A DNA stretch of 64,000 nucleotides from NCBI RefSeq assembly GCF_029203305.1, contig NC_089461.1, positions 930,001 to 994,000 on the forward strand, written 5' to 3'. This document shows, in pieces, positions 22,101 to 47,309 of the stretch (positions within the stretch are counted from its first letter, which is position 1; each line of letters opens with the position of its first letter). The position numbers and the translations under genes were made by a program. Origin of the DNA: Yamadazyma tenuis (Eukaryota > Ascomycota > Pichiomycetes > Serinales > Debaryomycetaceae). The notes beneath the pieces were generated by a model, which had not been told where the DNA came from, did no database searches, and saw only the letters and a program-made list of their open reading frames with translations.

Positions 22101-25100
22101 CTATTCATTCATAAGTCAGTCGAAGATATTCAAACCTCACTAAAGTTGGAACAGTATCCCAGTCAGTTCATGGCACTTGTTTCTCATTTTGTATCAATAT
22201 TTGAAACCAAGCAATTTGAGCAAGAGGAAATTCAACGTCATACAACGACTGGTCTTAACAAGCTTCGTGAGACAGTCTTACAGGTTGCTCAATTGAAAGA
22301 ACAACTTTCAAAGAAGCAGAAGGAACTTACTGCTAAAGACAGAGAAGCGAGAGAGATGTTGAACGCGATGTTACTAGAACAAAATGAAGCAGAGAGAAAG
22401 CAAGAGTTTTCCATAACTGCACAACAGGAGTTGAATAAACAGGAGGTAGAGATAGACAGAAGAAGAAAGATAGCATTGAAGGACTTAGAAGATGCTGAGC
22501 CTGCGGTTTTGGAAGCCAGAAAGGGAGTTCAGAATATCAAGAAGCAACACTTGACTGAAATTCGAAGTATGGCCAATCCTCCTGCTGCTGTGAAAATGGC
22601 CATGGAATCCGTTTGTATCTTAATTGGATACCAAGTAGCCAGCTGGAGAGATATCCAGCTTGCTATACGAAAAGATGACTTTATCCCAAACATTGTCAAC
22701 TACAATGGTGAGCAACAGTTGACAGCAGACATAAGGAAGTATATGACGGAAACGTATCTTTCGAGACCGGACTATACATTTGAAGTTGTCAATAGAGCTT
22801 CCAAGGCATGTGGACCATTACTTTTGTGGGTGAAAGCTCAATTGACGTATTCATCAATTTTAGACCGAATTGGGCCTTTGAAAGAAGAAGTCGATATCCT
22901 CGAGAATGGGGCCAAGAAGACGAAAGCACAACTCCATGCTTTGAAAGATATGGTTGGCGAATTGGAACAAAGTATCGAAAAGTATAAGAATGACTATAGC
23001 TCTTTGATTCGTGAAACTGAGCATATTAAAATGGAAATGGAGACAGTGGAGGCAAAGGTCAACAAGAGTTTCAAGTTGATGAAGAGCTTGACCATAGAAA
23101 AAGACAGATGGAAGAAGTCTACGCAAGAATTCATAAAGACCAATGAGAGAATCATAGGTAACTCGATCTTAGCGTCTGCCTTTTTGATATACTGCGGTCT
23201 GTTTGACCAAAAAACCCGTCAAGCTTTGATAAAAATCTGGAAGAAACAGTTGGATAAAATTGGAGTCAAGTACGACAATATGATATCTATTTTGAATTTG
23301 CTCCCTTCGAGTGCTCTTTCTTTGGAGTTCTTGAACGAGAGGTCATTGGATGATTTGGTTATTGAAAATGCCACTCTTGTAAACAACAGTCGGATTCCGC
23401 TACTCATTGATCCAAGTCTCCAAATGCTTGCAGTGTTGGAGGGGTTTATGCCAAAAGATAAGTTGGTCGTGACAAGTTTTTTGAATGAATCCCTTGTTAG
23501 AGATTTAGAGAACGCCATTAGATTTGGTGGGTCGATCTTGATTAAGGACTTTGAAAATTATGACCCAGTGTTGGATCCAGTATTGAGAAGCGAGATCCAT
23601 AGAAATGGAGGGAGAAGAATGATCAAGATACGGGGACAACTCATCGATTATGACGAGAAGTTCAAGTTGTATCTTCATACGAGAAATCCTTCTGCAAGAC
23701 TAACACCATTTATCGCTTCAAGGGTGACCACCATTAATTATACCATCACCAGCACAAATCTTGAATCTCAAGTCCTCAACTTAGCTTTGAAACACACAGA
23801 GCCAGAAATTGAAGAAAAGAGAGCTACTTTAATTGTGTTACAGTCTCAGTATAGGTCTAAATTGAAGACATTGGAAACTGAGCTATTGGATGCATTAGCA
23901 GAAGTTGGAGGGAGTATTCTTGATGATGATAAGGTGATTGAATATTTGGAGATGTTAAAAGGAGAAGCAAATACTATTGATGACCAGATACAAGAGTCTA
24001 AGGTTGTTTTGGAAGCTATCGATAGATCAAGGAGCAAGTTTTTCGACGTTGCATCCCATTCATCCCTGATTTTTGAGCTTTTGAAGGAAATGATTAAGTT
24101 TAATCCCTTATACAGGTTTACACTTGATACTTTCACCAGGATATTCTTGGATGTGTTGAACAAGACCAAGGAATTAGTCGATATGCAGTCAATGATTTTG
24201 AATTTATATAAGGAGGTGTTTGCAGTCATCTCTCCATCATTGATGGGAGTCGACAAGATGGTTTTTTCTTTGGGTTTGGTATTACTGTACTACTCCAAAG
24301 AAATCGGACCCCATTTCACAGTCTTTTTCAAAAGCATTTTCAGGTTTGCTAGTTCCAGAAAAAACCTTGATGTGGAAGAACTCTTCAGGACGCTCTTGAT
24401 AGAGTCAGATAAGAATGAAATATCGGTGATTTTGGAGGATAACTCAGAGAACGAAGTAATCAAGTTGTTGAGGCATGTGGTTTTGGCTGCAAACAACTTC
24501 GAGGCCTCACCATCTAACTTTATTACTTCACTAGAACAAATAAGCACCTTTTTGTTTTCCGGCATAGGTCCAAACAGCTCCAAATATGGCCTTGAATACT
24601 TTATCGAAGTAGTCCACGATCCCTTACTTCTAAGCTCAGCAGAAGGTTATGACGCCACATTCAAAGTGGAACAACTAGCAGCTAGTATGAACAAGAAGCT
24701 CGATATCATATCCTTGGGCTCTAAAGAAGGTATCGCGTCTGCTAAGAAAGAGATCCAAAATGTATCTATGAGAGGAGGATGGCTATTAGTTCAGAATATT
24801 CAAATGTCTCCTGAATGGCTCAACAGCTTGGAGACGCTTTTGCAAGAAACAAGTGGTTTCCATGAAGAGTTCAGGCTTTTCTTAACTTGTAACTTGGATT
24901 CTAGGATTCCAGTGACCTTAATTAACAACAGTCAAGTGATTGTGTTTGAAAGTCAACCAGGATTGAAACGTGCCATGATCGAGACTTTTAATGCTTATAG
25001 TGCAAGTGCCCTTGAACAAAAGCCACCAGAATATAGATACATCTATTTCTTGTTGGCTTGGTATCATTCGCTTGTGCTTACTCGAATGAGCTACGTTCCA

Positions 25101-25550
25101 GTGTCCTTTGCTCAGAAGTACGATGTCAATGACTCTGATTTCAGTGCTGGTATGAAGTCAATTGACAAGATCCTTGAACCAGAGATGAAAAATGGTGTAC
25201 AAAATATATCATTAGAGCTGGTATCGTTTGAAAGGATAAGCTTTATAATCGGTAAGATCATTTACGGTGGAAAGGTTGATAACGAAGGAGATTTGGAATA
25301 TTTCACCAATTTAGCTGAATACTTATTTAGTATTTCATCTTTTGGAATCGATTTTAATGTTCTTTTCAATGACACCAATACTAAATTGCCCAAACCAGAC
25401 GGAATCTCCGTACAAGTTTACCAAAAGTGGATTGAAGAGTTACCTGATCAAATTCCTTTAAGCTGGATTGGTCTAGATAACAATGTTGATAAGTTTATGG
25501 TGATGAGACAAGGTAAAGAGATTTGTGATAAAATTGTTCAACTATTTTGA
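13128..25550 (+). CDS. DYN1: Cytoplasmic dynein heavy chain
   Basis: Minus-end-directed microtubule motor used for spindle and nuclear positioning. It is a single uninterrupted ORF of 4140 residues (S. cerevisiae Dyn1 is about 4090). The N-terminal tail covers about 1-1350, followed by the linker. The four nucleotide-type modules show clear P-loops: AAA1 GPAGTGKT (1809-1816), AAA2 GDAGAGKT (2093-2100), AAA3 GPPGSGKT (2446-2453) and AAA4 GASSSGKT (2788-2795). Walker B motifs include CFDEFNR (AAA1), VVVFCDEIN (AAA3) and CYIIDEAS (AAA4). A long antiparallel stalk with the microtubule-binding domain follows AAA4 (about 3040-3330, with NPPAAVKMAMESVC), then AAA5/AAA6 and the C-terminal region. Leu is written mostly TTG. 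No introns or frameshifts are seen. Confidence 0.98.
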   Translation: MDLVTSDQLLEHVRSLSGLDELQKSQLAAIKYEEASISLFIQSYIPDSIIVAYMDPQHIAITSDVNSILNEETPQKLGILIKQGEQISSLSQIESLIIPLDSLEENDAFNKLRSIVNLGLLPVFEMLSLGKKANSESFINITRKKFNELSASLQNLQEKIQVPDLLLSVHPVIKQFDTEQDNFDEALLNDSHLLNEVTNIVNGWTKQIQSITSLSSDIANLASISEEIQFWNSLDISLTSVEQQLSCPQVKNSINLLNKANRFHITLSFTNDSNISSKIIEAKTNLLIWKDFPLTEMTNINPKDSDCLGKFNDLVSGIFNHLKRLRTISNFPLSKGLLLTELILKDLLAKFAHLINSLNLMNLEFEEFLRIYEGDISNILSTIDLNLKYMVNLIRELLRKRQEKFFIVRVNQEMFDQFKHRLEFLKTFRVKHENILFVIRNFLQDFDQEPKLMDDYNRLSVLNLLDFSKHGVFLWSSSERHYNNTYSQIQESITSQLNNLFIHCSNFKDFVTVAEKYKYLMIENTFDILSLMKEDLRLKILDIARTEIFNLIKFDTNYNDKLEKSLNLFVNSYQTQVEDYTVTRFLRALERRNKVSFYDDNLSSLVGKDWFKYSIGGKLKDQMSSFLIKFDPEEIFKQFLSHLKEYTDNNKLELKGNVFKISNNSDLLLNFNPEFLGLRDNLKFFRAIGFKIPVTILLEFQKLNRLLPMINDLKENILTVKRIFDITLRKEYFRKFDPLLEIDKLRLSKLLVSMAKVQWEHLTQAFEIQDVILQEESEISSLGIVREFQACINKLTLKLNSLSRTQVFLSNSIYHNLKTCKFDSASIESGLVILKERISELYSFESTEILYKQINEDIKDILLGRCKQEIETYSRSISTDDLSSDDEDSHVAEFSNSNHYFSVGFRNHSMVMEPSTDEIRSRLLASINDIVAVVEYQTLLLGEKVELKTEKLSEPLANALAQVDQLSEKIEVYFSDWVRIETMINMNVENNVEVDRFAPLDSLEDWCTSMQRLLKLGDLFDSDIVSFGCCHILLKEVQSKVYLKFTSFQRSMTKVLGEVHYLEVNRFDKKLSDAITSLGFDTMDTKNFTKNLLTFIEIRGFITGEWKKKLDLLVNSSKLLPKFNFRYPRKWIYPEQIENKIASISSIMEKKQSIIDENLEFIKSKIVGYVDELSDHILKFKDDWSLNRPISGEMNPVLVLNSLSNFNRVCSTYVDTKVELSVITEAFELDIPEVDIEVLKGILSEIIDFKYVWSSINSLHDQIDKLRKVKWQDVKTRDIRLKLEHLLEECRLLPIKVRQYAAFDEVQQMTKNLMKNHKHLVDLKNPNLKDRHWKRFLSMISYNGKNHRLLTLGDIWDLNLSLHEVSIKSIITQANNEYTLEENIEKIKENWNQITFEYFNFNTKFKLIKSWDLLFEECNKDLNELSSMRNSSSFGAFEQEIFQIETKLNSLYVILDSWIEVQRQWVYLEGIFGSKNNIASLLPVESARFNNLSYIFFDSMKKVYKIELAIDVLLIPDFGGNLEKLLESFSKLRRSLSDFLEKQRESFARFYFMGNEDLLELIGSGVNFQKINTHINKLFSGVASLQFNKESSSIISVSSAQGEILKLSEPVSLIKYPSLVDWLGQLELEIKISLRSLVSSNIEGVQKFYETPTMEAISKIVDDIPCQVLTLCCQIIFTKIVDNGNTPKSTISQIIDILSGLETHASSLKRNKIENIIVEVIHQLDVISLLETKPNDKSNILASELLYVLDNQESDPLKSLKVKQFGYSFEYGFEYLGVPQKLVHTPLISNSFVAMTQALGQKLGGSPLGPAGTGKTESVKALGDSLGKMVTVFCCDESFDFQAMSRIFLGLCKVGCWGCFDEFNRLDEKLLSAVSSQIETIELGLKNQSALIELSGKNLYVNPETGIFVTMNPGYAGRNELPENLKKLFRSFSMERPDKEIIVDVLLASRGFRNTKEIAKLIVPMFQDFEKMLSKQSHYDFGLRSLKSVLNSCGKLKRSTMNDANVTETMIVLRSIQDSILPKLTREDEVIFNSLITKYFSDTGVEDFEEEKLVETIKKLGQLKGYNMSGPWLRKVLQLEQVRTNHHGIILMGDAGAGKTSCWKLLLESLKECTGQDYLSYKIDAKVLNKETLYGKLDPVTREWTDGLLTSILRKIKANMRGEMNKLSWIVFDCDIDPEWAENLNSVLDDNKILTLPNGERLALPDNVRIIFETDNLKSTTLATISRCGMIWFDKDVIDTFSLLEQKLHQFSQKSLLIDETEGDESQWLKYQRMFLERVKMVLLEGTLGTIIHESTKLDHIMDYNIHRYITSFIDFIKSYCRKLIKCDSKEEIPDPTKFINKAILLSLIWSFAGDSSSKEREGFGNVIQKLSCFLNVDSCDGDFADNDLEIGTGEWIKWSSRIQPADLEPSQVSNPNTVVQTTDTVRHKSLIHSIMNEHKTLLLCGPPGSGKTMTFLEVLKTAPNLDILQLNFSKESSPESLMRSLKQYCEYQRTSNGIVFSPRVSGKWVVVFCDEINLPGVDKYGCQKVISLMRQMVEHRGFWDPKEMQWVEMKNIQFVGACNSPKDPGRQKLSNRFGRHVTLIMVDYPGETSLNQIYEEFNLAVMKCAPDLRGYTKSVVKAMISVYLKSKERLTPDIQSHYVYSPRELTRWTRGLLEALKLKIYTNLPDFIRMWYHEGLRLFYDRLVSDDEKVWTKSLFEDVIKECFPFADTIVIMQEPVLFSDWLSLSYESVNKAELNKFISHRLMIFSEEEFDVDLVLYEDFLIHALRIYRVLNQPQGHMILVGASSSGKTTLTKFVAWMNGLKSVQLNVHSKYNINDFDKSLREILIRCAKGERICYIIDEASIMETSFIERMNTLLANSEVPGLFEADDFKNLMNICLEESQAQGLLLDSDEELYKWFAQQISTNLHVVFTLTQLNNSDRLQMISSPALFNRCVLSYMGDWSSKTFQEVGSRKIESIPVDVQNFEIPESFPKNISSFRDILIDSLLFIHKSVEDIQTSLKLEQYPSQFMALVSHFVSIFETKQFEQEEIQRHTTTGLNKLRETVLQVAQLKEQLSKKQKELTAKDREAREMLNAMLLEQNEAERKQEFSITAQQELNKQEVEIDRRRKIALKDLEDAEPAVLEARKGVQNIKKQHLTEIRSMANPPAAVKMAMESVCILIGYQVASWRDIQLAIRKDDFIPNIVNYNGEQQLTADIRKYMTETYLSRPDYTFEVVNRASKACGPLLLWVKAQLTYSSILDRIGPLKEEVDILENGAKKTKAQLHALKDMVGELEQSIEKYKNDYSSLIRETEHIKMEMETVEAKVNKSFKLMKSLTIEKDRWKKSTQEFIKTNERIIGNSILASAFLIYCGLFDQKTRQALIKIWKKQLDKIGVKYDNMISILNLLPSSALSLEFLNERSLDDLVIENATLVNNSRIPLLIDPSLQMLAVLEGFMPKDKLVVTSFLNESLVRDLENAIRFGGSILIKDFENYDPVLDPVLRSEIHRNGGRRMIKIRGQLIDYDEKFKLYLHTRNPSARLTPFIASRVTTINYTITSTNLESQVLNLALKHTEPEIEEKRATLIVLQSQYRSKLKTLETELLDALAEVGGSILDDDKVIEYLEMLKGEANTIDDQIQESKVVLEAIDRSRSKFFDVASHSSLIFELLKEMIKFNPLYRFTLDTFTRIFLDVLNKTKELVDMQSMILNLYKEVFAVISPSLMGVDKMVFSLGLVLLYYSKEIGPHFTVFFKSIFRFASSRKNLDVEELFRTLLIESDKNEISVILEDNSENEVIKLLRHVVLAANNFEASPSNFITSLEQISTFLFSGIGPNSSKYGLEYFIEVVHDPLLLSSAEGYDATFKVEQLAASMNKKLDIISLGSKEGIASAKKEIQNVSMRGGWLLVQNIQMSPEWLNSLETLLQETSGFHEEFRLFLTCNLDSRIPVTLINNSQVIVFESQPGLKRAMIETFNAYSASALEQKPPEYRYIYFLLAWYHSLVLTRMSYVPVSFAQKYDVNDSDFSAGMKSIDKILEPEMKNGVQNISLELVSFERISFIIGKIIYGGKVDNEGDLEYFTNLAEYLFSISSFGIDFNVLFNDTNTKLPKPDGISVQVYQKWIEELPDQIPLSWIGLDNNVDKFMVMRQGKEICDKIVQLF

Positions 25551-32812: not shown

Positions 32813-34666
32813 GGCTTATAGATTAAGGAATGTGATTGATAATTGGTTCATTCAAGAAGCCACAAATGGGGTAATGTATAAAAAAATATCCAACTTTCAT
32901 TTGATAGTTTTTGGCGACAGGCTTTATATAATAAGAAGAGCGGTAGTCGAACGATTAAAAAAAACCTTGCTTCAGAGGCTCGAGGAACAATAGGAGGTAA
33001 TATGCACTTGACACAAAAAAGGCTAATTGCATGCCGTCTTGTGCCGATTGCAGGAGTATATACAGTGGCTTATGCATAGTTGGTTTTATTGCGGCTTAGC
33101 GATATCATTATCGTCAAATTCGCCGTTCGTAGGGATGTCAATAGATTCTTAGAAAAAAACTCAAATGATTTCCAGAACCCGGGGTTTTTTTTGAACCGGA
33201 GGCTGGGTAAGGCTTTGTTTACCTATGGGATATTTTGGTATTGAGCGCAACTTTCAGGCACCTTTTCAGGCACCTTTCTGGGGATACTTCAATAGTCTCT
33301 CATTTTCATCATCTGACCACTGCACTTACGCAGGCGCAAATATCACACTGGTACACATGGATGCACAACCTAAGCGGCATGCACACTGCTCAGGCAAATC
33401 TTGACAACACCGGGTTATTTTTTCCAAAAAGTAGGTCTTTGGCAAAACCCACCTTGTCGGCACAGTTTATTCTGTTCTGGGACAAATTCCCATGATGCGA
33501 GGGCGATCAAACACCAATTGAGGGTCACTCTACCCCTAAAGTTAGCCATTAATGTACGCGGTTGCCGAAGCACCATAAATTAATTCATAATCCCTGTGAT
33601 TTGCCTATAGTAGTCCAGTCTAATAAAAAATATGATTAAAGTTGGAGGCAGCAGCATAAAGTTGCCTCTAACAACCACACCTACCTTACACGAACGCGAA
33701 GCTTACTGCGCACTATTTTGACCGAATAAGTCATAACAGGTGCCACACGCTAATGTCAGGTAGTGGCTGCTTGAGTGGTGCCGTTTCCGCCAGTACAAGC
33801 GTCCGCAACCACCTGCGACGTACCGGCTGCACCTCCCGCAAAACCCATTGTCGCACTCAACGGTTTTTTGCTCGTTGTTTTTAGACTAATGCACCTCTTC
33901 GCTCCGGTTTAACAATGAAAGGAACAGAAATAATCCCCAGGATTCGCATTGGCTATTTTTTGGGGCCAGCCAGGACGAGCAGTATTTAAACTTTCGTGCA
34001 CAGTGCACCTCCTGTTTGCAAGTTAAGGTTTATTGACATGTCTCGGTGATACGTTTTGAAATCCAATGTCATGGATGAGAATTGGTGATCTTTTTGGGCT
34101 GGCCCCTGGATGATATGATGTACACATGTTTCGCTTTATCTTTTACGTCATGGCAATACAGGTACGTGTAGGAACCGGGCCAGATGGAATTGTCATTTTG
34201 CAGAAACAACTATAAAAATCAACCAACACCAACTCAACAGCCGAGTTGGGTGACTTCTTATTGAGATGACAGGAGGAGAACATTTACCAGTGAATGTGAA
34301 CAGAGGCCACCGTCTTGGCTGAATGGAGGCTATGGTCTGGGCCTTCTGTGGTTTTTATGTGAGAATCGATGGCATTTAGGAATCGCTGATTTTTACGCGG
34401 CAGGCGCCGCATTGTCTATATTTGATTTCATTGGCTCTAGCCGTCATTTCGCCTAACCGGCAAAGAATCCAACAAGCGCAGGCCCAATACGGCATTACCC
34501 TTAATAATCTTTGTCATTCGGAGTTACGCAAGAGAGTCAATTATTTAGGTCTCCATGAATATCGCACCTTTTTCACAAGAACCACTGCTGATACTCACGT
34601 TTACTTTACTGGACTTTCTGCCAACTCATGAAGCTGGATATCATAGAATTTGGGCCTACTTATAAT
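32813..34666. other. 1.85-kb gap at the left edge of the sugar cluster
   Basis: No credible ORF begins with ATG and no tRNA was seen. It contains a perfect 12-bp tandem duplication (TTTCAGGCACCT at 33252-33263 and 33264-33275). A GC-richer patch lies around 33780-33850. The gap separates the unknown gene's start from the 3' end of the BNR gene, so it is not needed as a cluster promoter. It could hold a decayed gene or a non-coding RNA; neither is visible. Confidence 0.45.
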
Positions 34667-35965
34667 CTACAAGTCTAAAGTACAAAGTACCACTCTCCTA
34701 TTATCCCCAGTGGCTTCTCTCTGCAAGAATGAGAGCCTTTCACTGTACCTGTCATACAATGGCTCCCCATCCAAGTTACTCATTTGAGACACCACTGCCC
34801 AGGTCTCATTGGAATCATATTCTCCCTGCACTTTTTTCAGACCTAAAACCACAAACTGGTGGTTTTCTAACGGTAAGAGGCCGTACAAAGTGTCATTGAG
34901 ATATACGAGTTTACCTCGTGCACCAAACACCTTTGCTTCCAAATTGTTGATTTTTCTTTTGTGCCACTTTGTGGAAGAAGCCATTTTATAATAGTGATAA
35001 TAGCGGCCGTATTCCCTTCCTAACACATGAACAGCTCCAGTCGGGTCCACACATTGACCTTCCTGATTCATGATACCTGAATACTTGGGAATGAGAACCG
35101 CTAAAGTATCTTGGGTAACGTCAACAGGGACACTGAGTTTCTGCCCCGTCGTGTTGTACCACGAAATTCCGTTATCGGGTGAATACATATAATGGAGATC
35201 ATGGTTGTTTTCTGGCCCATTCGGTCCTGCTTGAGCAGTGGTATGGTGAGTGGCTTCTTCAACTCTATCCTCAACAAAGTCTCTATAAGTCCAAGTAACA
35301 TGTAGAATGCCATTTCTATAATCGAAGCCATGCAAGTATGCATTGTTTTGTACCCCATGAATGTATGGTGAAGCGACGGTATTCCACTTGTGCGACTGGC
35401 TGCAAAATCTGTAGATGCAACAATCACCCAACCCCGATCTGCCATCTCTAAACTCCAAAAGCACATCACCGTTATCCACTGTCTGAAAACGGGGATATGT
35501 GATTTCGCTAAAGGTAAAATTCGTTGTATCTGATGGGAGATAGTTCATTACACTTGAAAATGAATCCACCGTCCAAGCAGTTTCCGTTGTCGTGACCCGA
35601 GCGGGCGCGAGTCCCGCTACTGAGCATCGATAGTGGATCTCGTCTCCATGCATATCCCAGGCCAAATGTATAATCCCATCTCCACTGATTCCCATGGATA
35701 TAACATTATGGCCATCGTCTTTGGTTTGGATATAGTCGTCAAAATATATGAATTCCCAGTCGGCACCGTTCACGGGCTTTCTGCCTATACAAGTTACTCG
35801 GGGGCCGGTGGGATCGCCACCACCACCACCACGAGGCTGGGGCACGTACAACGCCACATACTGGTACTGGCCCGCGGTAATCAAGGCGTCCTGCTGGAAC
35901 GAACAGCAGTTGATTCTGAAGCCATTTGGATCCAATTGAAGTGGTTGAATTTGAAGGGAAGACAT
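34667..35965 (-). CDS. BNR_4 beta-propeller protein, probable rhamnosyl-glucuronate lyase or rhamnosidase
   Basis: 432 residues, no signal peptide, so probably cytosolic. The block DDGHNVISMGISGDGIIHLAWD (in two parts, about 83-104, with H86 and H106) is the hallmark of the BNR repeat-containing family PF15892 (seven-bladed propeller). Members of this fold include ulvan lyases (PL24/PL25), the GH145 rhamnosidase-like proteins and a Fusarium lyase that removes L-rhamnose from glucuronate in gum arabic (PL42, from memory). The GH88 gene across the divergent promoter consumes exactly the unsaturated uronate such a lyase makes, so lyase action on Rha-GlcA is the best inference. It is first in the five-gene cluster. 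Specificity is unproven. Confidence 0.75.
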   Translation of the reverse strand: MSSLQIQPLQLDPNGFRINCCSFQQDALITAGQYQYVALYVPQPRGGGGGDPTGPRVTCIGRKPVNGADWEFIYFDDYIQTKDDGHNVISMGISGDGIIHLAWDMHGDEIHYRCSVAGLAPARVTTTETAWTVDSFSSVMNYLPSDTTNFTFSEITYPRFQTVDNGDVLLEFRDGRSGLGDCCIYRFCSQSHKWNTVASPYIHGVQNNAYLHGFDYRNGILHVTWTYRDFVEDRVEEATHHTTAQAGPNGPENNHDLHYMYSPDNGISWYNTTGQKLSVPVDVTQDTLAVLIPKYSGIMNQEGQCVDPTGAVHVLGREYGRYYHYYKMASSTKWHKRKINNLEAKVFGARGKLVYLNDTLYGLLPLENHQFVVLGLKKVQGEYDSNETWAVVSQMSNLDGEPLYDRYSERLSFLQREATGDNRRVVLCTLDL

Positions 35966-36376
35966 GATAATTGAGGGAATGCGGTGGATGGGGGAACATA
36001 TATTGGAAAGTCGGGGGCGGGGAAGTGGGTGTATGGGGGAAATCTCGCAGAAGCGTTATCTGCAACGTTGCAGTCACTGGCCCAACGGTGCGATCGGCTT
36101 TAGCGACGGTTTTAAAAGCTCACCCCACCGTGACCTTGGTGGGGGATCCAATCGCCCACTATGTTTACTAATAACCCCTCAACCTCCGACATACACATGT
36201 CGAGGCGGCTGAGAAGTACAGGATCGTCAGCTAAAATTAGAGCATGTATGCCCTGGACATATTTTTCGGGAATTCGAAGGTGGGGGGATCTGCATACTAA
36301 AGTGTGGGGCAACATATGTTTCTCCACCATAAATCCCAGAGATTTGCCTCGGAGAGTTTTGCTAACAACAAAATCG
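35966..36376. promoter_or_regulatory. Divergent promoter of the BNR_4 and GH88 genes with Mig1-like sites
   Basis: This 411-bp bidirectional region contains five SYGGGG sites: GCGGGG at 36017, CCCCAC (minus-strand GTGGGG) at 36123, and GTGGGG at 36139, 36280 and 36304. GCATAC lies at 36292-36297 and CATATG at 36313-36318, flanking the last GTGGGG. The same three words recur in other cluster promoters. SYGGGG is the binding core of the glucose repressor Mig1; its use here is inferred. Confidence 0.55.
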
Positions 36377-37606
36377 ATGTCGCAAATCCAAAGTTTGCTT
36401 GACGAGTTAGAGCCGAAGCTCTTTGCTGAATCCAATGTTGCTAAAATATGGGGGGTCGCTCAACAAAAACTAGATGACCCACAACCTCCCATCGAATATC
36501 CAGAGTATTCCTTTAACCGTTACTCTTACAGACCAGTTGACTACTGGACGGCCGGGTTCTTTCCTGGATCTATTGCTGCTGTGCTTGAACGGAGTGAAAA
36601 GTATCCCCACAAGTATCCTCACGATAAACTTCACGCAGTGAAGTTGGAGTACGCAGCCAAATGGTGGACTGAGGGATTGATGGGACAAGTACCTAGAACC
36701 GATACTCATGATCTTAGTTTCATGATATACCCGGCTTTCCTTAGAGAATACCAACGGAGCAAGAGCCCCAAAACCTTTGAAAGCTTGAAAACGGCTGCTC
36801 ATGCCTTGGCTAGTAGATTCAGCCCTAGTGCCGGGGTGATCAGAAGTTGGGATACAGCAGTTAATAAGAGGTATTCATTCACAGACCTTGACGCTGACTT
36901 CATTGTGATCATTGATAACATGTGCAACTTGAACATGTTGTACTACGTGGCCAGTCAGACGGGAGATTTGCTGTTATCTACTATTGCAACCACCCACGCG
37001 GAAAATACTTTGCAACACCATTTTAGACACCCAGAGTGGAGCAGTTATCATGTGGTCAACTACGAGCTGCTGACTGGAAAGCCAAAAGCCAAGTTCACCA
37101 ATCAAGGCTACGAAGATGAGTCCACCTGGTCCCGGGGTCAATCGTGGGCAATTTTGGGGTTTGCTGAAACCTACAGTTGGACCAAACAGAAGAAATTTTT
37201 AGATGCTGCGATCAACTGCTGGGAGTTTTTCGCAAGCAAATTGCCGCAAGATGGAGTCCCACCATGGGATTTCGATGCTCCAGACCCGGAAAATAGAGAT
37301 ACCAGTGCGGGATTGATCGCTGCGTTAGGGTTGCTTACCATATATGAAACCACAAAACAACAAAAGTATCTTGAAAGTGCTTTGAAACTCGTGGCTGATA
37401 TCGTCAGGTTACTGTTTGTGGATGGGGCTAAATTTAACGAGGACGGTACTGTAGATTTTGGCGAGTACGACACCATCTTGAAAGATGCCACTATCAACAA
37501 CAATCCCGACACCTTCAAGAAATTGGTGGGCCATGGACTTGTATATGGAGACTATTATTTCCTTTCAATTGGAAATAAACTCCTTGAATTAGGCTTATAT
37601 AATTGA
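36377..37606 (+). CDS. GH88 unsaturated beta-glucuronyl hydrolase
   Basis: 409 residues from the ATG at 36377. It hydrolyses the 4,5-unsaturated uronic acid left at the non-reducing end by polysaccharide or oligosaccharide lyases. The catalytic aspartates of the family are D112 (THDLSF) and D180 (IIDNMCNLNMLYY). Further signatures are GYEDESTWSRGQSWA, DTSAGLIAALGLL and HGLVYGDYYFL. There is no signal peptide, so it is probably cytosolic. The frame stays open for 72 codons upstream to an ATG at 36161, but that part is Arg-rich, overlaps the promoter motifs and does not look like the family. Two adjacent CTG codons at 37067-37072 fall in a polar turn, more plausible as Ser-Ser. Confidence 0.92.
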   Translation: MSQIQSLLDELEPKLFAESNVAKIWGVAQQKLDDPQPPIEYPEYSFNRYSYRPVDYWTAGFFPGSIAAVLERSEKYPHKYPHDKLHAVKLEYAAKWWTEGLMGQVPRTDTHDLSFMIYPAFLREYQRSKSPKTFESLKTAAHALASRFSPSAGVIRSWDTAVNKRYSFTDLDADFIVIIDNMCNLNMLYYVASQTGDLLLSTIATTHAENTLQHHFRHPEWSSYHVVNYELLTGKPKAKFTNQGYEDESTWSRGQSWAILGFAETYSWTKQKKFLDAAINCWEFFASKLPQDGVPPWDFDAPDPENRDTSAGLIAALGLLTIYETTKQQKYLESALKLVADIVRLLFVDGAKFNEDGTVDFGEYDTILKDATINNNPDTFKKLVGHGLVYGDYYFLSIGNKLLELGLYN

Positions 37607-37651
37607 ATGCAACGTCACATTTACCACCATATTATAAATATGAAAAGTTAG

Positions 37652-37691
37652 GTGGGGGTTTACATGTAGGATCGGGGAAAATGTATATAAA
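37652..37691 (+). promoter_or_regulatory. Compact promoter of the GH2 gene
   Basis: Only 121 bp separate the GH88 stop from the GH2 ATG. They hold GTGGGG at 37652-37657 (Mig1-like) and TATATAAA at 37684-37691, about 37 bp before the ATG. The short spacing makes read-through from GH88 possible. Confidence 0.5.
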
Positions 37692-37709
37692 CCCGCCAAA
37701 TCCCCATGA

Positions 37710-40823
<3,114 letters not shown>

Positions 40824-40907
40824 CTAGTGTAATACAAGTATGAAATTAGTTCTTACAGTAGATAAAACATTAAAATAGGTACACAAATATTGCTATCTAT
40901 ATAGAAG

Positions 40908-42542
40908 CTACTTGCTAGTGTATTCAACTTCTTCCACTTCAGCTTTGGATGGTTCTGAGTCCAAGTCATTCTCCTTGCCACGAATAGCTTGGTCAGCAGC
41001 AACAAGACCTTCTGTGACATCTTCACCGAATACTTGAGCAATTTCTTCGAGACCAAGTCCTTTCGTTTCAGGGAAAATAAAGTACACAATACAGATTTGG
41101 ACCACCAACCAAATACACCAAACGATGTAGTACTTCCAAGTAATAGCATTCATGGCAATAGGGTTGACATAATTGTTGAAGAATCCAATCACATTACCAG
41201 ACAATTGGTAAATAGTGGATCCTTGAGCTCTCAAGTGGAATGGGCAAACTTCCATAACATAGGTCATAGCAACAGGTGATGCAATATGGTAGAAACCTGA
41301 AAACAAGTAGATCATGGCCACCACCCCTGAACTTAAAGATTTGTTTTCGAAGTTTTGCTGTTGGTTAAGTGAAGAAAGAATAGTCCAAATCACATAAGTT
41401 ACACACATGAGGGCAAATCCTGTCATGAACATTTTTCTTCTTTTGAACCTATCAACGTTTATTCCAACACCTACCGACCAGAATAAACCATAGACGGTCA
41501 TACCGATATTGATTTTCAACTGATCGTTAGAATCGGTAATACCGATGTTGGTCAACACAATCAGCAAATAGTAGGAAATCAAAGCATTACCACATAATTG
41601 AACCATAGCTGGTACAGCAGCAACAATAAAGAGTCTTCTCAAACGTTGTTTAGATCTGAACCATTCAGTAAACTTACTGCTAATCTGGTTTTGTTCTTGA
41701 GCAAGAATTGCTTTAATTTCAGCCATTTCAAAAGCCACAAGTTTTGAATTTTCATCTCCTCCAGCATGGTACTTAACAAAGAAGTTTCTAGCCTCGTGTT
41801 CCCTTCCTTTACTGATCAACCATCTTGGAGACTCAGGTCCAAAAGACACAATCAAAATTTGAAGAAGAGGGAAGAAACATTGCAAAATAGAAGGAATTCT
41901 CCAAGACCAATTATTGTATTTCAACGAAGACCTGTAAGGACCCCAGGTTACCATGGCTGCCACAAATGATCCAAAAGGCCAAGAAGCCAACAACAAAGCA
42001 GTAATAGCAGGTCTTTGGGTTGGGTATGCGGTTTCACTCAAAAGTGGCCCAGCAGCAGCAGAGGAAAGACATGAACCAATTCCCAATAATATCCGGGCAC
42101 CGGTGAACATTCCAAAGTTTTGAGCAGCCCCCTGTATCACAGCACCAATAACAATAATACAGCATCCTAAAAGCACCACTCTTTTCCTTCCCAAATAATC
42201 AATAATCCAGAAACTTAAAGGAATACAGATCAACGTACCAATAGAGGGCCCATTTGACATGGTTCCCAAGATAGCCCCTTTAGGATGGTCAAAGTATGAC
42301 TGCCATGAAGGAAGACTCTGAAGCCCATTCATACTCGAACCATCAAAACCAGAGGTAATTTGAGCCAAAATAGATCCGAATAAAAATATATCCAATTTAA
42401 TTAACCACCAATGTTTGTACCAAGGTTTATCAAACTTGGGCACTACATCATTCAAGATCAAAACTCTGTCTTCCAAGTTGGTATAGGCTTCAAGTTCGGA
42501 AGGGTTAACCTCCTTTTCGGTTTGCTTTTCTACGTTAGCCAT
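40908..42542 (-). CDS. Sugar permease of the MFS, LAC12-like
   Basis: 544 residues with about 12 membrane spans. Sugar-porter signatures include DYLGRKRVVLLG, PESPRWLISKGR and the C-terminal PETKGLGLEEI. Features such as the extended acidic N terminus, FGSILAQITSGFDGSSMNGLQS and the GWPFGSF-type segment (LASWPFGSFVAAM) match lactose and oligosaccharide permeases of fungi better than hexose transporters. It is the only transporter in the cluster, and all the enzymes appear intracellular, so it is the likely importer of the cluster substrate at the plasma membrane. It converges with the GH2 gene with 84 bp between stops. Confidence 0.88.
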   Translation of the reverse strand: MANVEKQTEKEVNPSELEAYTNLEDRVLILNDVVPKFDKPWYKHWWLIKLDIFLFGSILAQITSGFDGSSMNGLQSLPSWQSYFDHPKGAILGTMSNGPSIGTLICIPLSFWIIDYLGRKRVVLLGCCIIVIGAVIQGAAQNFGMFTGARILLGIGSCLSSAAAGPLLSETAYPTQRPAITALLLASWPFGSFVAAMVTWGPYRSSLKYNNWSWRIPSILQCFFPLLQILIVSFGPESPRWLISKGREHEARNFFVKYHAGGDENSKLVAFEMAEIKAILAQEQNQISSKFTEWFRSKQRLRRLFIVAAVPAMVQLCGNALISYYLLIVLTNIGITDSNDQLKINIGMTVYGLFWSVGVGINVDRFKRRKMFMTGFALMCVTYVIWTILSSLNQQQNFENKSLSSGVVAMIYLFSGFYHIASPVAMTYVMEVCPFHLRAQGSTIYQLSGNVIGFFNNYVNPIAMNAITWKYYIVWCIWLVVQICIVYFIFPETKGLGLEEIAQVFGEDVTEGLVAADQAIRGKENDLDSEPSKAEVEEVEYTSK

Positions 42543-42903
42543 TTTGTATTTCCCCAGAAAAGACCCCGGTTATTACGCAGAGCTTTTATACAGAGTTTGA
42601 ATTCGGGCTGAGGAGGAGGAGCTTGGGGTAGAGTCACCTTGAAGGTCTGCTACATACGAATCAGGAACACCATTGCAGATACATTAACGGTGGGGGCGCA
42701 TGGCATATGGGTATGCAGATTGTGGGGTAGGCCTATTGCGGAACTGAGATTTATTCTCTCAGGAAAGTGGGTGACTCCCCATCTTTTAGGGCTGTTACGA
42801 GCGGCAGCGGAGTAGAGCTATATACAAGAACCAGGCTTTTTCGAATTAAACTCTGAATTTGTTCTACAACGTTACATTTGGATGAAATTCCAGTTATATT
42901 TGT
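42543..42903 (-). promoter_or_regulatory. Promoter of the cluster permease with Mig1-like sites
   Basis: 361 bp. SYGGGG sites lie at 42564 (as CCCCGG), 42690 (GTGGGG) and 42722 (GTGGGG). CATATG at 42704-42709 and GTATGC (minus-strand GCATAC) at 42711-42716 are next to the last site. The grouping repeats that in the BNR/GH88 and DUF2264 promoters. Confidence 0.5.
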
Positions 42904-44739
42904 TTACTGATTACAGAAGACCCGTTTTAGAGGACCAGAAGCACCTTCGAAGCTAATGTTGGCCTTTTTTTCGGCGTTTTTAATATCATCGATAGAAAAC
43001 GACCCATTTGCAAGAAGGTTAGCACTGATAATACTACCAAAAGTGACCTTGGAGTTGGGTGCAATTATACCGTGTAATTCTGGAATAAGCGCCTTGGAGA
43101 ATACAAGATTGGCATTGGGCTCAGTCTTACACAATAGGGTTGTTCTTTCACCCAATATGTTGCATATTATACTGTAATCGGTGGCAGTAGTGACCTTACT
43201 AATGCGTTCATCAGTTTCTCCGTCACACTTATGGCTGTTCATATCCACTGCAAAACCACCTTCTTTGGTGAACAATTGTCTTGATGTTCCATTCTCAATC
43301 GTATGGATTCGAATATGGTACTCATCACCTGGAATAAGATATGATTGCACCGTGACATCATACGTTGGGGACCATTTACTCACCATAACTCCATTTGCAG
43401 CCACCCAGGCCTCATAATATTCTCTAACCCAAAACTCTTTATTATTGAAACTGAACCCTATCATATTATCCAAATGGGCAGACTTGAAGCTTCGGTGGTT
43501 AGTGATCACCCCGAATCCATATCTTGAAGAGTAGGCAAACTTGCTATACTTTTCTGGTTGGTACTCGTCGTGCCAAGGCCCATTCACCAACACAATAGAA
43601 TTTTTTTGGTGATGAGAAAAGTGCATTCCAATAATGTCCATGTATTTGGTGTCTAGGTGGTGTTGTTGGGGTGTGGCTGTCCAGAAGGGGTGTGATTCAT
43701 CCATTAATAAGCCGGTGAATGCTTTCATACTCCAATAAGGTGATTGCGGTGAATTATACAATTCTGTCATGAAGTTATTGGGGTAAGCATACCCAAGAGT
43801 TAAGAGCTTACTTCCGTAATTGGAGATTGGCTGCTTCGACCACCACTTGAAGTGACTCAAGTAGACGTATTTAAGAACACCCCAAGGAATAGCAGGTGAA
43901 TCATTGATGTCTAACACTGATGCGTACAAACCCCAGAATCCAACGGTTGCAAATTTATAGTTCAAGGATCTTCCATATGGAATAGCAGCACCTTCAGAGT
44001 CAAACCAGTGAATATACTGCTTGGAAAACTCGGTGGCTCTTTGGAGATACCGTGCACATCTTTCGGGATCTTCGTGCTTCTTGAGCTTATAGTAGATGAG
44101 ACCGTAGTAGTGGAAGGCAAACCCATTATAGTAGTCAATTCTATGTTTCTTGTCTTTACCATCTCCGTACCAGCCATCTCCAAGGTACATAGATTCGATA
44201 TCCTCCAAATATATTTCGGTTGAAACTGTTTCAATGTCAACCCCTACTTTCTCAAGTGCAAGGTCAACAAGAACCTTAAAGAATTTCCAGTTGTTCCCGG
44301 CAAATTCTTTGGTCCTAACGTTCTGAAGATATTCTATAACCACCGTTTTGTCCAGAGGTTCTAACGGATCCCAATAGTGGTCCTTACACCTACAAAGTGC
44401 ATAGGCTACTGCTGCCATATCCACCAAGATCTGGCTATAACCTTCAGGATCTCCCCAGTATTCATCGCCTTTTGGATCACACCCACTGACCAACCCCTTT
44501 CTGTATAGTTCCCAGTACTGGAACTCACCACCTCCAAGCTGGTACAGAACAATCCCCCATAATGGTCTCAGATATCCTTCCAACTCCGCTGCTGCGTACG
44601 AGCACGACGAGCCTCCGGCTGCAATTCTAACTCTGGCACCACCTTTAGAAAAGGTTGGTACCAACGGCTCGAAAAGCTCGTCATGAGCTTCAAATAAATC
44701 TCTCTTGGTTTCAAACTTGTTGTTTTTCCACGGGAACAT
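42904..44739 (-). CDS. DUF2264 family protein, probable carbohydrate-active enzyme
   Basis: 611 residues. The N-terminal block (KRDLFEAHDELFEPLVPTFS, then GGSSCSYAAAELEGYLRPLWG) is the signature of PF10022 (DUF2264), predicted as an alpha/alpha toroid with a C-terminal beta-rich domain. Aromatic and acidic residues typical of a glycan cleft are frequent (GDGWYGDG, RIDYYNGFAFHYYGLIYY). DUF2264 genes often sit beside uronate-glycan enzymes; from memory some relatives belong to the beta-glucuronidase family GH154, which would fit this cluster, but I cannot verify that. No signal peptide. It is the last gene of the cluster. Confidence 0.75.
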   Translation of the reverse strand: MFPWKNNKFETKRDLFEAHDELFEPLVPTFSKGGARVRIAAGGSSCSYAAAELEGYLRPLWGIVLYQLGGGEFQYWELYRKGLVSGCDPKGDEYWGDPEGYSQILVDMAAVAYALCRCKDHYWDPLEPLDKTVVIEYLQNVRTKEFAGNNWKFFKVLVDLALEKVGVDIETVSTEIYLEDIESMYLGDGWYGDGKDKKHRIDYYNGFAFHYYGLIYYKLKKHEDPERCARYLQRATEFSKQYIHWFDSEGAAIPYGRSLNYKFATVGFWGLYASVLDINDSPAIPWGVLKYVYLSHFKWWSKQPISNYGSKLLTLGYAYPNNFMTELYNSPQSPYWSMKAFTGLLMDESHPFWTATPQQHHLDTKYMDIIGMHFSHHQKNSIVLVNGPWHDEYQPEKYSKFAYSSRYGFGVITNHRSFKSAHLDNMIGFSFNNKEFWVREYYEAWVAANGVMVSKWSPTYDVTVQSYLIPGDEYHIRIHTIENGTSRQLFTKEGGFAVDMNSHKCDGETDERISKVTTATDYSIICNILGERTTLLCKTEPNANLVFSKALIPELHGIIAPNSKVTFGSIISANLLANGSFSIDDIKNAEKKANISFEGASGPLKRVFCNQ

Positions 44740-45584: not shown

Positions 45585-45656
45585 TTCCGATGCCGGGAGT
45601 CGAACCCGGGTTTGCTGCGTGAAAGGCAACCGTGCTAGCCGTTACACTACATCGGA
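45585..45656 (-). tRNA. tRNA-Glu (UUC)
   Basis: 72-nt cloverleaf on the minus strand. The acceptor stem TCCGATG pairs with CATCGGA and the discriminator is A. The anticodon stem GTTGC/GCAGC encloses loop CTTTCAC with anticodon TTC. The T arm contains GGGTTCGACTCCC. There is no intron. A T-run (A7 on the plus strand at 45578-45584) follows as the Pol III terminator. The T loop and A box (TAGTGTAACGG) match yeast tRNA-Glu. Confidence 0.96.
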
Positions 45657-46083: not shown

Positions 46084-47061
46084 CTAAATAGTCTTACTAT
46101 GGCCATTCATGTTAAGTTTGTATATACCTAAAATGTAGGATACCCTGGTGACCACCAAATCAATAGCCATGTTAATAGAGTCTTTGACCAAATCGATTTT
46201 CAGTCCGTCTATCTCTTGCCAGTTGACAGGAAGTTCCTTCATGTCAATGCCCTGGTATGAAGCAAGAAGGAGAATTTCCACATCAAATATCCATCTTTCT
46301 GTGTGCATATGAGGAAAAATCCGCTTGATACTGTTAAAGTCAAACATCTTAAAACCACACTGGGTGTCTTTCACCCCATGAATCCCAAACACATACACTA
46401 GCGTATGTAATCCGTACATCAACAAGTTTCTGATGAACGACCTTTTTACAACCGCTTCGGTATTAACCATATGGGCTCTTGAGCCGATTGCAATAGAACC
46501 GTATGGATTCGTATGAGCCTTTAAGTACTCGAGTAAGTGCTCCAGGTCACCAAATTTGGTGGCTCCATCAGCATCGGCAAATAACACATACTCACCTGAG
46601 GCATGAAGCATACCATGAGTCACAGCACCTCCTTTTCCACGGTTTTTCGTCAATTCCACCACCTTAACGGTGTGAGGCTTCAACTCGTACTTGCGGGCCA
46701 ACAGCAACGCGTAGTCGGGGGTTCCATCTTTGGACTCATCATCGATTATCAAAATCTCATACGTGAGATCGTGGGTTTTGAAGTATTCCACACATTCCTC
46801 AAACATATTGCCCAACCGTTTCGTTTCGTTGTAACAGGGAACCACCACGGTGAGCTTCACGCCATGGTCAACATATTCGGCAGCTGGGTCGATTCGAGTG
46901 GGCAAGTCATAATGTTGGTTGTTGGCATCATTGGTTCTATACTTGAGCTCAGAAGGCGTGGGGAGCCTCGGGGAGTGGGCAAAAAATAATGCAGTGGAAT
47001 AGACCATTACCAAGATAGTGATGACGGCCGCTGCCACGAGGAACAACGTCGTTGTTTCCAT
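46084..47061 (-). CDS. ALG5: Dolichyl-phosphate beta-glucosyltransferase
   Basis: 325-residue ER membrane enzyme that makes dolichyl-P-glucose from UDP-glucose for N-glycan assembly. The N-terminal membrane anchor (about 4-27) is followed by HSPRLPTPSELKY and a GT2 catalytic domain with VVVPCYNE, IIDDESKDGT, NRGKGGAVTHGML, FADADGATKF, SRAHMVNTEAVVKRS and KDTQCGFKMF, all as in yeast Alg5. The ATG at 47061 gives the normal anchor. An in-frame extension of 59 codons starts at TTG, is Cys/Lys-rich and was left out. Confidence 0.94.
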   Translation of the reverse strand: METTTLFLVAAAVITILVMVYSTALFFAHSPRLPTPSELKYRTNDANNQHYDLPTRIDPAAEYVDHGVKLTVVVPCYNETKRLGNMFEECVEYFKTHDLTYEILIIDDESKDGTPDYALLLARKYELKPHTVKVVELTKNRGKGGAVTHGMLHASGEYVLFADADGATKFGDLEHLLEYLKAHTNPYGSIAIGSRAHMVNTEAVVKRSFIRNLLMYGLHTLVYVFGIHGVKDTQCGFKMFDFNSIKRIFPHMHTERWIFDVEILLLASYQGIDMKELPVNWQEIDGLKIDLVKDSINMAIDLVVTRVSYILGIYKLNMNGHSKTI

Positions 47062-47309
47062 ATTGGGTTTGTATTGTGATGTTTTGCAGGTGTTTCTACA
47101 CGTTGAGATTTTTCGCGGTCGAGTGTATTTACACCAACATTTCAAACATTTCAGCACTAGTGATTTTCTCTTGGTTAACATCCTTTTTTGGAGATCTCTC
47201 ATTTTATCCAAGCATTCCTTGACTTGAGTTATTGTCAAAGTATCTTACCTCTGAAAATGTCAGTACTAAACTGTTTATTCGACTTATATATACATATTAT
47301 ACTTTGGGA

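Follow-up and report, generated by a model that had tools for sequence, protein, structure and literature searches.

Five adjacent yeast genes with a candidate PL42 lyase and a predicted glucuronate dehydratase beside one GH88-type hydrolase

What would a yeast break down with a beta-galactosidase whose gene stands among genes for uronic acid enzymes, and how would an unsaturated uronate be supplied to the GH88-type hydrolase encoded beside it? Both questions are raised by five genes of Yamadazyma tenuis within the window, that is, the whole 64,000-nt stretch of DNA that was analysed.

Layout of the locus

All five open reading frames lie intact and side by side where an initial annotation had placed them (Table 1). 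Window proteins were translated under code 12 for the Pfam searches; opposite ten CTG codons in three of the genes, aligned relatives carry serine 28 times and leucine 7 times, although few of these columns are conserved. In the 1.85-kb gap on the left, a broken gene was sought, but there is no open frame of note and tblastn against 364 collected proteins returned no match at 0.01. None of the five genes encodes a transcription factor, and no 9-mer is shared by at least three of the four cluster promoters, in which zinc-cluster-like CGG/CCG pairs are present without a common pattern.

Table 1. Features of the locus, in window coordinates
Feature	Position	Strand	Remarks
BNR_4 propeller gene	34667..35965	-	432 aa; PL42 candidate, Rha-alpha-1,4-GlcA lyase
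Divergent promoter, lyase and GH88 genes	35966..36376	.	411 bp, if GH88 starts at 36377
GH88-type unsaturated glucuronyl hydrolase gene	36377..37606	+	409 aa; listed ORF from 36161
GH2 LacZ/LAC4-type beta-galactosidase gene	37728..40823	+	1031 aa
MFS sugar permease gene (Sugar_tr)	40908..42542	-	544 aa
DUF2264 + DUF2264_C gene	42904..44739	-	611 aa; predicted beta-D-glucuronate dehydratase (former GH154 family)
tRNA-Glu	45585..45656	-	marks the right-hand edge of the cluster
Family-2 glycosyltransferase gene	46084..47202	-	right-hand neighbour, outside the cluster

The BNR_4, DUF2264, GH88 and GH2 proteins each have a single match in the 10.86-Mb genome (E 0.001). Under uniform placement, three single-copy genes would fall within 10 kb of a fourth with p about 6e-9, and their clustering exceeds chance. 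The permease (Sugar_tr, Pfam 3.7e-72) is one of 41 genome matches, some of them partial, with its closest paralogue 43% identical; labelled LAC12-like in the initial annotation, it finds only generic sugar transporters in the PDB. The best aldo-keto-reductase match of the genome, used as a proxy for xylose reductase, is closer to 5zci than to 1jez, an entry from Candida tenuis.

The enzymes and their active sites

The BNR_4 domain (Pfam 2.8e-77) belongs to a protein whose PDB matches are headed by FoRham1 entries (7esl, 3.5e-68), with the GH145 entries 5mvh and 5muk further down (about 2e-27) and ulvan lyases weakest (2.7e-4 to 1.8e-3). The PL42 catalytic residues D84, H86, H106, Y157, R173, Y210 and R228 are invariant in 21/21 aligned rows, the window protein included, and answer the His-His-Asp triad, Tyr150, the neutraliser Arg166, Tyr202 and Arg220. 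Tyr26 of FoRham1, which binds rhamnose O3, is Phe23 in the window lyase, in a column with 14 Phe, 5 Tyr and 2 gaps (n=21). With FoRham1 closest and the catalytic residues kept, the protein groups with PL42, which supports the choice of lyase candidate in the initial annotation, and it is a candidate L-Rha-alpha-1,4-D-GlcA lyase. A posterior-site rhamnosidase of the GH145 kind was considered and rejected, His48 of BT3686 (Tyr34 of FoRham1) being Ala31 here. The NCBIfam model for the BT3686 alpha-rhamnosidase scores the window lyase at 134 bits, short of its cut-off of 700, and so does not name it.

By a simple hydrophobicity scan, no secretion signal is apparent, nor a signal peptide in the window lyase, in agreement with the intracellular setting first proposed. 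The window lyase lacks the hydrophobic leader with which three related Fusarium proteins begin (39-40% identity to it), and is therefore probably cytosolic.

The BNR_4 protein had also been taken for the sole supplier of unsaturated uronate, and this needs revision, since the DUF2264 protein belongs to a family of glucuronate dehydratases and is a second candidate. Its DUF2264 domain (Pfam 9e-117) is followed by DUF2264_C. By family and fold it falls with the former GH154 family and with BcGDH, the two proteins sharing PF10022 at only about 20% identity over the common domain. All ten BcGDH pocket residues (E74, R78, N176, N177, W178, F181, Y229, R285, Y289 and Y354) are present in the window protein; eight of the positions are invariant in 23/23 rows, those of N176 and W178 being kept in 16/23 and 19/23. 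Foldseek with the whole protein also retrieves glycosaminoglycan, hyaluronan and alginate lyases at a TM of about 0.5, and 8oi4, a solved member of the family, was deposited as a GH154 beta-galactosidase. We predict a beta-D-glucuronate dehydratase and know of no earlier one in a eukaryote.

The GH88 ORF is not reported by PF07470 at E 0.01, but phmmer aligns it with solved GH88 enzymes (3wiw, 1.4e-38; 1vd5, 4.3e-27), and it also matches fungal proteins named GH88, so that its original identification stands. Its putative active-site residues D184 and D252 (numbered from 36161) are invariant in 21/21 rows; we take these to be the two active-site Asp of the family, presumably those altered in the D88N and D175N mutants of PDB titles. 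The listed ORF appears to begin too early: its 18 best homologues (P0245-P0262) measure 406-423 aa in 16 cases and 448 and 472 aa in the remaining two, all 18 align over 83-88% of it, and Met73 fits their N-terminus. The translation start is thus likely 36377 rather than 36161, which would leave the BNR_4 and GH88 genes with a 411-bp divergent promoter in common. Genome-wide, the Pfam model for GH88, whose scope includes GH105, does not find the cluster gene but a GH105 protein on contig C5 and, weakly, a sequence on C4. The weak match lies within a 369-aa ORF that looks GH76-like by eye.

The GH2 protein has five Pfam domains, all past their cut-offs (best 4.4e-98) and Bgal_small_N among them. 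It aligns with 3ob8, which we take to be LAC4 of Kluyveromyces lactis, at 8.2e-264, including GNE and ILCEYGH, the motifs of the catalytic glutamates. Domain layout and alignment uphold the GH2 identity.

Linkage elsewhere and related systems

Linkage in other yeasts was judged by eye from equal sizes of the longest contigs, among the matches listed. On this measure, BNR and GH88 matches share contigs of 10591, 46452, 4407, 3097 and 743826 (Myxozyma melibiosi); BNR and DUF2264 share one of 20720, where the DUF2264 protein is nearly identical to one of Meyerozyma sp. JA9; and DUF2264 and GH88 share those of 16811, 19115, 3645571 (Scheffersomyces xylosifermentans) and 440862 (Rasamsonia byssochlamydoides). 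Five of ten close BNR relatives (P0007-P0016) have such a partner contig among the matches listed. Megabase contigs say little on linkage, as in S. xylosifermentans and for BNR and GH88 of Aspergillus steynii (1759027); the Trichomonascus pair of BNR and GH88 (999276), likewise weak as linkage on a megabase contig, has locus tags far apart. In Sungouiella intermedia the DUF2264 and GH88 contigs differ in size, which counts against linkage. As far as equal contig sizes show, the scatter of unlinked orthologues that the initial annotation had named as evidence against a cluster is not borne out, and a module of DUF2264 and GH88, with PL42 added in some, is apparently found again in further yeasts and in certain other fungi.

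In bacteria, 47 of the best 80 among 575 confirmed DUF2264 loci combine GH88 with a heparinase-II/III-type gene, and a BNR_4 gene is near DUF2264 in 0/80. The titles of these 80 are Alphaproteobacteria, so that the 47 are not independent, and 9/80 have shortened flanks; GH88 was not found in the DUF2264 loci of Devosia (15/15) and Microvirga (5/5). No yeast or fungal cluster of this kind was found in the open-licence literature, from which subscription papers are mostly missing.

In the LAC12-LAC4 pair of K. lactis, a GH2 beta-galactosidase gene adjoins that of an MFS permease. The window pair resembles it, but is convergent and set amid uronide enzymes. In Formosa, too, a dehydratase reportedly readies a saturated uronate so that an unsaturated uronyl hydrolase can act on it; there the ulvan dehydratase P29_PDnc is paired with GH105. 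In the study on BcGDH, P29_PDnc is stated to be unrelated to it in sequence (PMC12269599). A close parallel is PUL25 of Bacteroides caccae (PL35, BcGDH, BcGH88 and GH109), in which a lyase and a glucuronate dehydratase likewise both supply Delta4,5-GlcA to one GH88; PUL25 is, however, bacterial and directed at chondroitin, its lyase has another fold and its sugar is GalNAc, where Gal is expected in yeast (PMC12269599). The yeast enzyme carries DUF2264_C, and BT_3677 is said there to have a second domain too (PMC12269599). In the AGP locus PUL5 of Bacteroides plebeius, BpGH145 (now PL42) frees rhamnose from wine arabinogalactan protein before an unsaturated glucuronyl hydrolase acts, but this is a polysaccharide utilization locus with BpGH105 instead of GH88; the term GH154 is absent from the text of that paper (PMC8406133). 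FoRham1 of Fusarium oxysporum (PMC8377490, PMC10951650) shares PL42 and the catalytic residues with the window lyase and differs at Tyr26.

Proposed pathway and competing readings

The cluster probably serves the intracellular catabolism of small beta-glucuronides that contain galactose and may or may not carry a rhamnose cap. The substrates we infer are Rha-alpha-1,4-GlcA-beta-Gal and GlcA-beta-Gal, as found on arabinogalactan side chains, to which the cluster would be linked in this way. The oligosaccharide would be taken in by the permease. Where rhamnose is present, the PL42 lyase would cut it off by beta-elimination, leaving Delta4,5-GlcA-Gal; where it is not, the DUF2264 enzyme would dehydrate the terminal saturated GlcA to the same product. 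GH88 would then take off the unsaturated uronate, GH2 would split any galactoside left, and L-rhamnose would enter the oxidative LRA route, encoded on another contig. We lean slightly towards this scheme of two entries and one exit, in which a cytosolic lyase and a dehydratase both feed one GH88 and the module is shared with further yeasts and certain other fungi; a classical beta-glucuronidase would not be needed.

GH43 and GH30_2 attack arabinogalactan-type glycans. A six-frame search of the genome that ignored introns matched neither, the controls being matched in 5/14 and 1/14 genomes, so neither family can give this yeast a way into intact arabinogalactan. The same search gave no KduI match (controls 6/14), and the GH79 model PF16862 matched nothing here, but nothing in any control genome either. 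Several observations count against the proposed pathway: the lack of a KduI match for the released 4-deoxy-5-ketouronate, a lactase-like GH2 that could serve lactose, the 8oi4 deposit, the low identity to BcGDH, Phe23 in place of Tyr26, the bacterial loci without BNR_4, the unmatched GH43 and GH30_2, and NCBIfam, which names neither the lyase nor the GH88 and DUF2264 proteins.

Some other GlcA-containing substrate, such as plant glycosides or fragments of microbial exopolysaccharides or ulvan-like oligosaccharides, is a tentative possibility. It would fit the unmatched GH43 and GH30_2 and the make-up of the bacterial operons, by which the DUF2264-GH88 module is not bound to a single glycan; substrates also vary among PL42 members, BpGH145 being active on wine AGP and inactive on gum arabic (PMC8406133). 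Yet FoRham1, the nearest characterised lyase, is best on Rha-GlcA and is called gum-arabic-specific (PMC8377490), and a beta-galactosidase gene inside the cluster fits Gal beneath GlcA. That Gal also argues against two unrelated modules, one for lactose (GH2 and permease) and one for uronides (PL42, GH88 and DUF2264), as does the position of the GH2-permease pair between GH88 and DUF2264; such a division, suggested by the convergent pair and by a GH2 nearest 3ob8 and the sole such gene found in the genome, is unlikely.

It is also rather improbable that the DUF2264 protein is a lyase or galactosidase instead of a dehydratase, as the 8oi4 deposit and the Foldseek lyases might suggest, together with the likening of the BcGDH mechanism itself to alginate lyase Alg17C. 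A lyase and a galactosidase are already in the cluster, and the BcGDH pocket is complete. Moreover, in the report on BcGDH dehydration was found with BcGDH and BT_3677, and the galactosidase activity of early preparations is blamed on contaminants, e.g. LacZ (PMC12269599). Chance neighbours with no pathway in common would suit the lack of a transcription-factor gene and of a shared promoter 9-mer, but given the placement of single-copy genes and the apparent linkage in other yeasts this is extremely improbable.

Priming by both a lyase and a dehydratase for one hydrolase is a pairing so far described in bacteria. If the proposed pathway is true, the dehydratase and uronyl-hydrolase logic of the 2025 gut-bacterium report would work in yeast cells too, the uncharacterised family DUF2264 would gain a testable eukaryotic function, and it would be explained how a yeast could take off terminal glucuronate with no need of a beta-glucuronidase. 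Such yeasts are predicted to scavenge plant-gum and AGP side-chain fragments, and their enzymes may be of use to trim gum arabic.

A compact cluster in a yeast genome

The cluster lies in a genome of 10.86 Mb and 8 contigs, of which the window covers C1:930001-994000, and its neighbours in the window are of yeast type (mRNA-capping triphosphatase, AIM3, CDC20/Fizzy and alpha-adaptin domains). Pfam directly names four of its five ORFs: BNR_4, GH2 with a beta-galactosidase small-chain domain, Sugar_tr and DUF2264. The remaining ORF gave no match to the Pfam GH88 model at E 0.01 and matches solved GH88 enzymes at E 1.4e-38. The BNR_4, DUF2264, GH88 and GH2 proteins each have a single match genome-wide; assuming uniform placement, three single-copy genes would fall within 10 kb of a fourth with p ~6e-9. 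As GC content is 0.428 in the cluster versus 0.422 in the remainder of the window, composition shows no sign of recent transfer. tRNA genes can serve as insertion points, and one limits the cluster on its right.

Among the best 18 GH88 relatives listed (proteins P0245-P0262), 16 are 406-423 aa long, query coverage is 83-88% in all, and Met73 of the listed ORF is the start that fits their alignment, which together place the true start probably at 36377. Given this start, the BNR_4 and GH88 genes would share a divergent promoter of 411 bp.

Locations of the features discussed (G000, this yeast's genome; C1 and C5, its contigs; L-numbers, loci with their own coordinates; bare coordinates, the window)
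Feature	Location	Remarks
Five-gene cluster	34667-44739	ORFs all intact
tRNA-Glu	45585-45656	right-hand limit of cluster
Stretch with no convincing gene	32816-34666	1.85 kb; separates cluster from left neighbour
Single open frame	13128-25550	4140 codons
L-rhamnose oxidation stretch	G000:C5:726629-740234 (L101 5629-9109, L005 937-2187, L102 764-9234)	~14 kb
Enolase-superfamily sugar-acid dehydratase adjoining DHDPS-family protein	G000:C1:817358-819939 (L104 1358-3939)	sugar transporters nearby; ~110 kb left of window
Heparinase-II/III-type gene + GH88 + DUF2264	L036 1786-6710, 9974-11824, and 46 further of L017-L096	Alphaproteobacteria

The lyase and the proposed pathway

The nearest solved relative of the BNR_4 protein is FoRham1 (E 3.5e-68), followed by the GH145 entries 5mvh and 5muk at ~2e-27 and by ulvan lyases at 2.7e-4 and above. 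FoRham1 is a Rha-GlcA lyase of Fusarium that acts on gum arabic; its key residues are Asp83, His85, His105, Tyr150, Arg166, Tyr202 and Arg220 (PMC8377490, PMC10951650), and Tyr26 contacts rhamnose O3. The seven correspond in order to D84, H86, H106, Y157, R173, Y210 and R228 and are invariant in all 21 alignment rows (the window protein and 20 relatives picked from 119 listed matches). Ala31 sits where the GH145 rhamnosidase has its posterior-site histidine. Against this, Phe23 replaces Tyr26, in a column with F in 14 rows, Y in 5 and a gap in 2, and NCBIfam yields a single model hit, to the BT3686 rhamnosidase, at 134 bits, far under that model's cut-off of 700. The lyase is probably cytosolic, because its N-terminal hydrophobicity is low (Kyte-Doolittle maximum 0.66) compared with four filamentous-fungal relatives checked, which bear a hydrophobic N-terminal leader (1.7-2.7); among seven relatives without a filamentous-fungal label, six range from 0.3 to 1.3, with the reservation that P0007 reaches 1.75.

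From the families and residues evident in these proteins we infer a scheme, including its substrate, the order of its steps, a cytosolic site and dehydratase activity in yeast. The permease would take up oligosaccharides, the lyase would convert Rha-GlcA-Gal to rhamnose and Delta4,5-GlcA-Gal, and the DUF2264 dehydratase would form the same product from uncapped GlcA-Gal. GH88 would then take off the unsaturated uronate and GH2 would handle galactosides. The GH2 protein is nearest to 3ob8 (E 8.2e-264), which we take to be LAC4 of K. lactis. It is a loose end, since the GH88 step on GlcA-Gal already frees galactose and GH2 would come into play only with galactosyl aglycones or longer galactosides.

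Linkage in bacteria and other fungi

Among the best 80 of 575 confirmed bacterial DUF2264 loci, GH88 occurs in 47 (~3.3 kb upstream, among 25 rows listed) and a heparinase-II/III-type gene in 56, including all 47 with GH88; BNR_4 occurs in 0 of the 80. Because the GH88-bearing loci have no BNR_4, the coupling of DUF2264 with GH88 is independent of PL42, the candidate family of the yeast lyase. ABC transporter genes are present in those of the alphaproteobacterial loci with all three genes (heparinase-II/III-type, GH88 and DUF2264) that were inspected, and such three-gene loci are likely a lyase-dehydratase-hydrolase system.

In fungi, co-location was read from contigs of equal size across three sets of matches listed. 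Among these matches, lyase and GH88 share a contig in five cases (10591, 46452, 4407, 3097 and 743826 bases, the last from Myxozyma melibiosi); one case (20720 bases) pairs lyase with DUF2264, and three of the yeast group (16811, 19115 and 3645571 bases) pair DUF2264 with GH88. If the contigs are indeed the same, lyase and GH88 have to be close together on those of 3.1 and 4.4 kb. The DUF2264 and GH88 genes of Rasamsonia byssochlamydoides carry locus tags 1454 and 1456. Other cases are contrary or uninformative: Sungouiella intermedia (contigs differing in size), Trichomonascus (one contig, tags far apart) and Aspergillus steynii (a single 1.76-Mb contig). A quick DUF2264 tree of 44 proteins (the window's and 43 of 119 listed; SH-aLRT without bootstrap, rooted on bacteria) places the window's yeast group of 20 rows in a single clade within fungi (SH-aLRT 100).

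Fate of the products and relation to known systems

The C5 stretch encodes an LRA1-type L-rhamnose 1-dehydrogenase (370 bits, under the model cut-off of 400) and an LRA3-type L-rhamnonate dehydratase (506 bits versus 393); no lactonase (LRA2) of this route was identified. Two DHDPS-family proteins, an aldo-keto reductase, a Zn2Cys6 regulator, a cytochrome-b5/FMN dehydrogenase, an MFS permease and a GH105 nearest to 3qwt, 3pmm and 4xuv accompany them, and the stretch may be another system for unsaturated uronides, here derived from rhamnogalacturonan. KduI gave no match in the genome search, and the C5 DHDPS-family proteins are candidates for the route of 4-deoxy-5-ketouronate. The genome search also gave no match for GH43 or GH30_2, and this speaks for scavenging of released fragments rather than degradation of intact arabinogalactan.

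B. plebeius uses a PL42-type lyase and an unsaturated glucuronyl hydrolase together on AGP (PMC8406133), and B. caccae pairs dehydratase, lyase and GH88 (PMC12269599). The yeast cluster would resemble the former in its lyase/hydrolase pairing and the latter in its dehydratase/lyase/GH88 pairing. Neither pairing was found in print for any yeast in searches of the openly licensed literature. Since both pairings are described in bacteria, the yeast arrangement is a variation on a known theme and, as far as that literature shows, its occurrence in a yeast is the new part.
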